Assembly (NCBI GenBank): GCA_016937715.1
Contig: JAFGWA010000035.1
Location: 1-48,613 of the forward strand
Reading direction: 5' to 3'
Source of the DNA: Candidatus Goldiibacteriota bacterium
GTDB lineage: Bacteria; Oederibacteriota; PGYV01
DNA: 48,613 bases
Below are positions 228 through 1,755 of the stretch, piece by piece. The position numbers were made by a program, and so were the translations under genes. The number at the start of each line of letters is the position of its first letter. Position 1 is the stretch's first letter. The notes beneath the pieces are model-generated. The model was not told where the DNA came from and made no database searches. It saw only the letters and a program-made list of their open reading frames with translations.

Positions 228-303
228 TTATTCCCTCCTTCATTTATGTAGTTCTTATAATTATTATAGCCCATAGAAAATATTAAGCAAGAGAATAAAA
301 CCC

Positions 304-455
304 GAGGGACCGAGGGACGGATGCACGGAGGGACAGATGCAAAAACAGAAGACCTAAGGGACAGAGGGACAGATGCACGAAGAAACGGATGCAAAAACAG
401 AAGACCTAAGGGACAGAGGGACAGATGCACGAAGAAACGGATGCAAAAACAGAAT
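304..455. repeat. Octamer-periodic tandem repeat, GAGGGACN/GATGCACG type
   Basis: Reading from 304 the sequence falls into 8-bp words: GAGGGACC, GAGGGACG, GATGCACG, GAGGGACA, GATGCAAA, AACAGAAG. A 52-bp block (6.5 words) is then perfectly duplicated at 336-387 and 388-439, with a third partial copy at 440-454. 52 is not a multiple of three and there is no ribosome site, so this is not coding. Confidence 0.9.
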
Positions 456-632: not shown

Positions 633-1727
633 TTACTCCAGCCTTGATTCCCTTTTCAGTTCCTTATAATCATCAAACCAGTAAGCTTTGGGATTGCGTT
701 TTGCTATTATAAATTTGGAACTGTCTATTTCTTTCTTTGCCCTGTGATATTTAAAAAATATCCTGTTATCCGTCAACCCCACTATTTCTATCTTACCTGT
801 GGCGTGCGACATTACAAACTTTGCCCTTTTTGCAAGCCCCGAACAATATGACTTTGCCTTTTCAAATATCCTGTACCCTTCTTCCACCGGTACTGCAAAA
901 TCCTTATTTGCAAGCGTTGGCCTGCACTGAAAAACATAATATGGCGGAACCCCCATAAAAGAAAGTTTGCGTAAAAGCTGCGCCATTATCTGAACATTAT
1001 CATTAATCCCCCTTAAAAGCGGAGTCTGATTTGCCATTATAGCGCCGGCTCTGATAAGTACATTTACCGCCTTTATCGCTTTGGGCGTAAGTTCGCGCGG
1101 ATGGTTAAAATGCACCATAAAATATATCTTTCTTTCATCTTCGGAGTATTTTCTGACCATTGCCGCAAAAGAAGGGTCTTTTAAAATTCTGTCAGGATTA
1201 TACGCCGGCATCTTTGTGCCTATCCTGATAATATGCGCGGTTTTAACTTTTCTTAACTTGCCTATTATTTCGCTTAATTTTTTTGTCGGCAACATTAACG
1301 GATCGCCGCCGGTCAGCAGCACATTGGTTATTTCTTTATGCTTTTTTATATAGGCCGCTGCTTTATCAATATCCACACAGCCGGCTTCGCCTTTTTTTAT
1401 GAATATGCGTTTTCTGAAACAGAACCTGCATATACTGCCGCATGTCCCGCTTACCAAAAGCAGGGCTGTTGACCTGTATTTATGCTGCATCCCGGGCATT
1501 ACAAGGTTTGACTTTTCTTTTGAAGGGTCATAACTTCCCCACTTGTCCATTTCAAGAGTCTCAGGAATAACTATTCTGCGAATAGGGTCTTTCTTATTTT
1601 TCCAGTCTATCAGCGATAAGTAATAGTCATTAACTTTGAACTCGTACCTATCCGTTACTTTTTTCAGATTTGTTTTTTCTTTTTCCGAAAGCCCTTTGAT
1701 TTTACCGATATCTGTGATGTATTTCAT
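633..1727 (-). CDS. KamA-family radical SAM aminomutase-like protein
   Basis: A 364-residue radical SAM enzyme related to lysine 2,3-aminomutase and EpmB. The cluster motif CxxxCxxC is at Cys96, Cys100, Cys103 and GGDPL at 140-144. The PLP lysine is probably Lys312 in SHATGK, which replaces the usual PGGGGK loop. Known lysine mutases bind the substrate amino group with two aspartates (in QCDL and VVDAPGG); by my alignment these are Arg269 (QCRP) and Ser307 here. Free lysine is therefore a doubtful substrate. The C-terminal zinc-binding tail of full-length KamA (about 416 residues) is absent. The start is ATG behind AAAGGAGGTG. It appears monocistronic, with its own promoter, and no efp or epmA lies nearby. 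Confidence 0.85.
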   Translation of the reverse strand: MKYITDIGKIKGLSEKEKTNLKKVTDRYEFKVNDYYLSLIDWKNKKDPIRRIVIPETLEMDKWGSYDPSKEKSNLVMPGMQHKYRSTALLLVSGTCGSICRFCFRKRIFIKKGEAGCVDIDKAAAYIKKHKEITNVLLTGGDPLMLPTKKLSEIIGKLRKVKTAHIIRIGTKMPAYNPDRILKDPSFAAMVRKYSEDERKIYFMVHFNHPRELTPKAIKAVNVLIRAGAIMANQTPLLRGINDNVQIMAQLLRKLSFMGVPPYYVFQCRPTLANKDFAVPVEEGYRIFEKAKSYCSGLAKRAKFVMSHATGKIEIVGLTDNRIFFKYHRAKKEIDSSKFIIAKRNPKAYWFDDYKELKRESRLE

Positions 1728-1755
1728 AAAGCACCTCCTTTATTATTGCATAACC

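Follow-up and report, generated by a model that had tools for sequence, protein, structure and literature searches.

An Arg/Ser-type branch of the KamA family of radical SAM enzymes with a possible role in osmoadaptive β-glutamate synthesis

The 48,613-nucleotide stretch of Candidatus Goldiibacteriota DNA that we analyzed (contig JAFGWA010000035.1, referred to here as the window) contains a gene whose product is, judging from its sequence, an intact radical SAM/PLP protein of the KamA family. Sequence comparisons indicate that this protein is a member of a widespread, uncharacterized branch of the lysine-aminomutase family, the Arg/Ser type, which is separate from lysine 2,3-aminomutase (LAM), EpmB, and glutamate 2,3-aminomutase (Eam). 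We propose, with a probability of about 0.5, that its product is a 2,3-aminomutase, dependent on PLP and SAM, that makes β-glutamate from L-glutamate and functions in osmoadaptation. That the product is an osmolyte β-amino acid of one kind or another is a broader claim, and we consider it quite probable. We infer the catalysis, the substrate, and the product, and it is the relatives of the gene that suggest an osmotic role in the window organism: because these relatives lie downstream of riboswitches for osmotic stress or next to genes for osmolytes, the enzyme probably makes a protective β-amino acid.

Table 1. Features of the KamA-like gene and its product in the window
Feature	Position	Strand	Remarks
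KamA-family radical SAM/PLP enzyme gene, Arg/Ser type, 364 aa	633..1727	minus	ATG start; stop included
Shine-Dalgarno sequence AAGGAGG	1734..1740	minus	6 nt ahead of ATG; read from sequence
CxxxCxxC radical-SAM cluster motif (Cys96, Cys100, Cys103)	1419..1442	minus	invariant
Arg105, equivalent of LAM Arg134	1413..1415	minus	LAM alignment; invariant
Arg269, replacing LAM Asp293/Eam Lys332	921..923	minus	alignment; invariant
Met306-Ser307, replacing LAM Asp330/Eam Asn369	807..812	minus	register +/-1; Ser307 invariant
Lys312, PLP-binding lysine (LAM Lys337)	792..794	minus	invariant
Glu314, carboxylate close to PLP lysine	786..788	minus	nearly invariant; caveat

The window protein (Table 1) matches the Radical_SAM domain of Pfam and scores 215.2 bits against the NCBIfam model of the KamA family (TIGR00238), for which the cutoff is 199.2. 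It remains below the cutoff of every specific model, with 215.5 bits against TIGR03820 (lysine 2,3-aminomutase AblA; cutoff, 525.4), 228.4 bits against TIGR04368 (Eam; cutoff, 650), 178 bits against TIGR03821 (EpmB; cutoff, 369.3), and 223.5 bits against TIGR04468 (arginine 2,3-aminomutase, likewise of the KamA family; cutoff, 600), and it is far below the cutoff of the NCBIfam model AblA_like_2. Proteins of this type are therefore easily misnamed lysine 2,3-aminomutase. The KamA motif residues Cys96, Cys100, Cys103, and Lys312 are invariant in an alignment of 50 sequences. The closest solved relative by sequence (phmmer) is LAM (2a5h), which is also the top PDB match (TM score, 0.79) of an AlphaFold (AF2) model made with the 50-sequence alignment as input (mean pLDDT, 93.5). 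The dN/dS values of the gene relative to two sister species (congeners) are 0.035 and 0.059, which indicates strong purifying selection. We did not find a second KamA-type gene in the window organism's genome.

The gene is flanked by repeat-rich intergenic DNA. GAGGGACaGA/GGATGCACG units are present in tandem and inverted arrangement in the intergenic regions on both sides of the gene (window positions 287-454, 588-622, and 1806-1825), including three copies with 52-nt spacing in 287-454 and an inverted copy at 596-622. The gene is also bracketed by the two copies (518-562 and 1864-1908) of a 45-nt direct repeat, which are 96% identical, and the upstream intergenic region has a 35-nt inverted repeat (86% complementary) at 1963-1997 and 2134-2168.

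In LAM, Asp293 and Asp330 grip the ε-ammonium group of lysine, and Arg134 binds the substrate carboxylate. An earlier note on this DNA had claimed that Arg269 and Ser307 occupy the places of the two aspartates and that the glycine loop is shorter than in LAM. For Arg269, this is borne out by the phmmer alignment with 2a5h, in which QCR(269)P and QCD(293)L are paired and no gap occurs nearby (Asp293 was numbered by counting along the printed alignment). A script locates QCRP at position 267 and VMSHATGK at position 305. When the alignment is anchored on the common SGLA, it is Met306 that falls on LAM Asp330, while a profile-profile alignment with Eam places Ser307 on Eam Asn369, i.e., on LAM Asp330. 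Neither residue is a carboxylate, and so the loss of the second aspartate stands, with a register (Met306 or Ser307) that is uncertain by one. The loop up to the PLP lysine is indeed 1 to 2 residues shorter than that of LAM. Thus, the window protein has neither the Asp293-Asp330 pair of lysine 2,3-aminomutase nor the Lys and Asn of Eam at these two sites, but Arg269 and Met306/Ser307. In the 50-sequence alignment, Arg269, Pro270, Ser307, Gly311, and Lys312 are all invariant, which, together with the dN/dS values, indicates that replacement of the aspartates is not a matter of chance or decay. Glu314, two residues past the PLP lysine, is nearly invariant in the same alignment (it is His in L004) and may reach the substrate site.

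Compared with LAM (AblA/KamA), the window protein has the same radical SAM core, CxxxCxxC motif, Arg134 equivalent, PLP lysine, and fold, but it lacks both aspartates, has the shorter loop, and is on a separate branch of the tree. AblA-type loci read QCD (QAD in one case) and mostly DAPGGGGK. The likeness to Eam lies in the replacement of both aspartates, in the cation at the 293 position (Lys in Eam), and in an association with osmotic riboswitches, which for Eam is taken from the literature. The two differ in that the window protein has Arg and Met-Ser where Eam has Lys and Asn, a change that was independent. That Eam exchanges both aspartates was stated in the earlier note and proved correct: among 199 genomes searched, 73 have a match above the curated TIGR04368 cutoff, and all 20 of the loci that were read for motifs contain FHAK and NAPxGxGK.

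A scan of named genomes yielded 80 loci with homologues in methanogens and in many bacterial phyla, among them Planctomycetota, Nitrospinota, Nitrospirota, Calditrichota, Zixiibacteria, Thermodesulfobacteriota, Aquificota, Acidobacteria, Bacteroidota, Bacillota, and Proteobacteria. The gene is present in 86 of 120 Methanomicrobiales genomes and in 45 of the 121 genomes sampled from the Paenibacillus family. Since the Arg and Ser residues do not vary among the 50 homologues, which come from numerous bacterial phyla and from methanogens, they mark a clade and not an oddity. In a tree of 69 rows (IQ-TREE), a branch (94/82) sets off all 40 Arg/Ser sequences, along with L018 and L019, and AblA, Eam, and EpmB are placed opposite them (97/89). 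Eam, which has full support as a group of its own, is on the AblA side of the tree, apart from the Arg/Ser clade, and both aspartates were therefore lost independently in each. The places of L018, L019, EpmB, and L024 in the tree are unsure because their rows are poorly filled or long. Our search of the open-access literature did not find an earlier description of the Arg/Ser clade.

Several individual homologues have unusual features. L018 and L019 are larger KamA relatives with Arg in the first motif (VMRNTG and VARDTG) and with MSxxPGK, and the tree alignment covers them poorly. L024 (1501-2487; G002:C103), in a sister species, is a very divergent second KamA homologue on a long branch, with CLGYCNYC, HYAP, and FHVDGK. 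A KamA homologue in a Desulfonatronovibrio MAG (L050, 1432-3003, minus strand) has IFNCSYR and ATAGGK and adjoins a 464-aa gene, and the orthologue L007 (G034:C335) has one in-frame TGA close to its C-terminal end.

Tandem Na+ and c-di-AMP riboswitches are known to precede ablA, and Na+ riboswitches are associated with eam, in both cases as part of osmoprotectant control (PMC9337991). We found a c-di-AMP riboswitch (RF00379) upstream of the Arg-type gene, on the same strand, in 5 of 11 Bacilli loci (L081, L084, L091, L093, and L095) and directly upstream of it in 19 of the 20 Paenibacillus family loci scanned; one genome is common to both sets (L081 in the first, L165 in the second). All three of the riboswitch loci examined have the same layout of promoter-like site, aptamer, terminator-like site, and RBS. 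The eight genomes in which these riboswitches were counted have 3 to 9 c-di-AMP riboswitches each, and their placement upstream of the Arg-type gene is therefore not due to chance. At the gathering threshold, no c-di-AMP riboswitch was found in the remaining 6 of the 11 first-scanned Bacilli loci, no riboswitches were found in 17 other loci from mixed phyla, no riboswitch was found in the window, and no osmotic element was found at the window gene itself.

In the Methanomicrobiales, the Arg-type gene adjoins ablA and/or ablB, the genes for the osmolyte N-ε-acetyl-β-lysine, in 9 of 30 loci. There are two gene orders, with the Arg-type gene either ahead of ablA or after ablA-ablB, and in Methanospirillum stamsii the neighboring AblA and AblB both exceed their equivalog cutoffs. 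Among 26 enzyme-bearing genomes, matches above the cutoffs for AblA as well as AblB are present in 5 (G005, G059, G387, G415, and G498), and neither protein was detected above the cutoffs in the other 21, which include the window genome. Based on this distribution, we rejected the idea that the Arg-type enzyme replaces AblA, and we conclude that it does not supply AblB either. Together with the invariant Arg and the lack of Asp at the 330 position, this gene content supports an acidic or otherwise non-lysine substrate, as the earlier note had suggested; its further option, a substrate that is not a free amino acid, gained no support.

At most of the 80 named loci there is no osmotic neighbor, and the window gene stands alone. 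A conserved operon across all lineages was considered and rejected, since most copies are solitary. In one Methanomicrobiales locus (L227), the gene is followed by genes for an MscS channel and a Na+/H+-exchanger-family protein, and in one Calditrichia locus (L041), it overlaps a gene for a PF00375 Na+:dicarboxylate symporter; each is a single case. DJ-1/PfpI (cluster 1) was rejected as a general partner because a true DJ-1 was confirmed only in Nitrospinaceae (L044); in other phyla, the proteins of this cluster are longer, and their kinship is doubtful. The class-III aminotransferase neighbors in haloalkaliphilic Bacilli and in an Acidobacterium belong to two different subfamilies. In three loci from haloalkaliphilic Bacilli (L098, L100, and L104), a divergently oriented glutamate-1-semialdehyde-aminomutase-like gene and an RpiR-like regulator (by eye) are upstream of the orthologue. 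Besides the osmotic links, no other recurrent neighbor was confirmed across phyla.

By analogy with LAM, the [4Fe-4S] cluster would cleave SAM, and the 5'-deoxyadenosyl radical would abstract the hydrogen at C3 of an amino acid held in a PLP aldimine. The substrate would be joined to PLP via Lys312 and anchored at Arg105 through its α-carboxylate, and its amino group would shift from C2 to C3. Arg269 would pair with a distal side-chain carboxylate, as Lys does in Eam, and with such a partner the most likely reaction is conversion of L-glutamate to β-glutamate, a poorly metabolized compatible solute that accumulates in osmotic stress. Glutamate is the substrate that fits best; aspartate would yield no new constitutional isomer. 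The choice of substrate depends on one position, at which the Arg might just as well bind an amide or be folded out of the way. β-Glutamate is an osmolyte of methanogens, but according to a review, a glutamate aminomutase was excluded as its source by early NMR studies of the methanogens concerned, and the review favors a CoA-ester route (PMC1224877). The NMR report lowers our confidence in β-glutamate as the product. We are slightly more tentative about the clade as a whole, which may be another radical glutamate 2,3-aminomutase that evolved independently of Eam, i.e., an osmoadaptive β-glutamate synthase that is distributed over many bacterial phyla and the Methanomicrobiales and, in the Paenibacillus family, is under the control of c-di-AMP.

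An enzyme with the same osmoadaptive role might act on a neutral or other substrate, with Arg269 bonding an amide or another group. Such an enzyme might convert glutamine to β-glutamine, alanine to β-alanine, or N-ε-acetyl-lysine to its β form, or it might use 2-aminoadipate. The genomic evidence for an osmolyte names no substrate, and both β-glutamine and N-ε-acetyl-β-lysine are known methanogen solutes (PMC1224877). However, an invariant Arg fits a carboxylate most simply, as with the Lys of Eam, and an acetyl-lysine route would be redundant beside AblA-AblB, so we regard this explanation as rather unlikely. It is more doubtful still that the role of the protein, as an aminomutase or a related radical enzyme with PLP, is nonosmotic, e.g., in secondary metabolism, cofactor metabolism, or catabolism, and that the riboswitch and abl links are lineage specific. 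The scarcity of osmotic neighbors among the 80 named loci is consistent with such a role, as are the DJ-1/PfpI, aminotransferase, and isochorismatase neighbors at some loci, but two unrelated lineages, the Paenibacillus family and the Methanomicrobiales, tie the gene to osmotic control in different ways, and no competing neighbor was confirmed to recur across phyla.

Membership in the KamA family would also be expected of a lysine 2,3-aminomutase with a different lysine-binding mode, for which Glu314 could provide the carboxylate. This is very improbable, since an Arg at the 293 position would repel the ammonium group, and since the genomes without AblA are also without AblB, while those with AblB retain a true AblA. 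We give even less credence to an EpmB-like protein-modifying enzyme (EpmB functions in EF-P β-lysylation) or a noncatalytic relative. The window protein is close to EpmB in length, has the same family fold and motifs, and scores 178 bits against TIGR03821, but this is far below the EpmB cutoff of 369.3, the substrate-loop sequence differs, and E. coli EpmB retains Asp at the 293 position. In addition, the Arg-type enzyme occurs in archaea, which to our knowledge lack EF-P, and all of its catalytic residues are invariant.

The Arg-type family is common in the Methanomicrobiales and in the Paenibacillus family. If its members make β-glutamate, they would add an enzyme to the synthesis of this osmolyte, for which the review gave no complete route in methanogens (PMC1224877), many β-lysine annotations would be corrected, and the gene would be a new target of c-di-AMP riboswitches.
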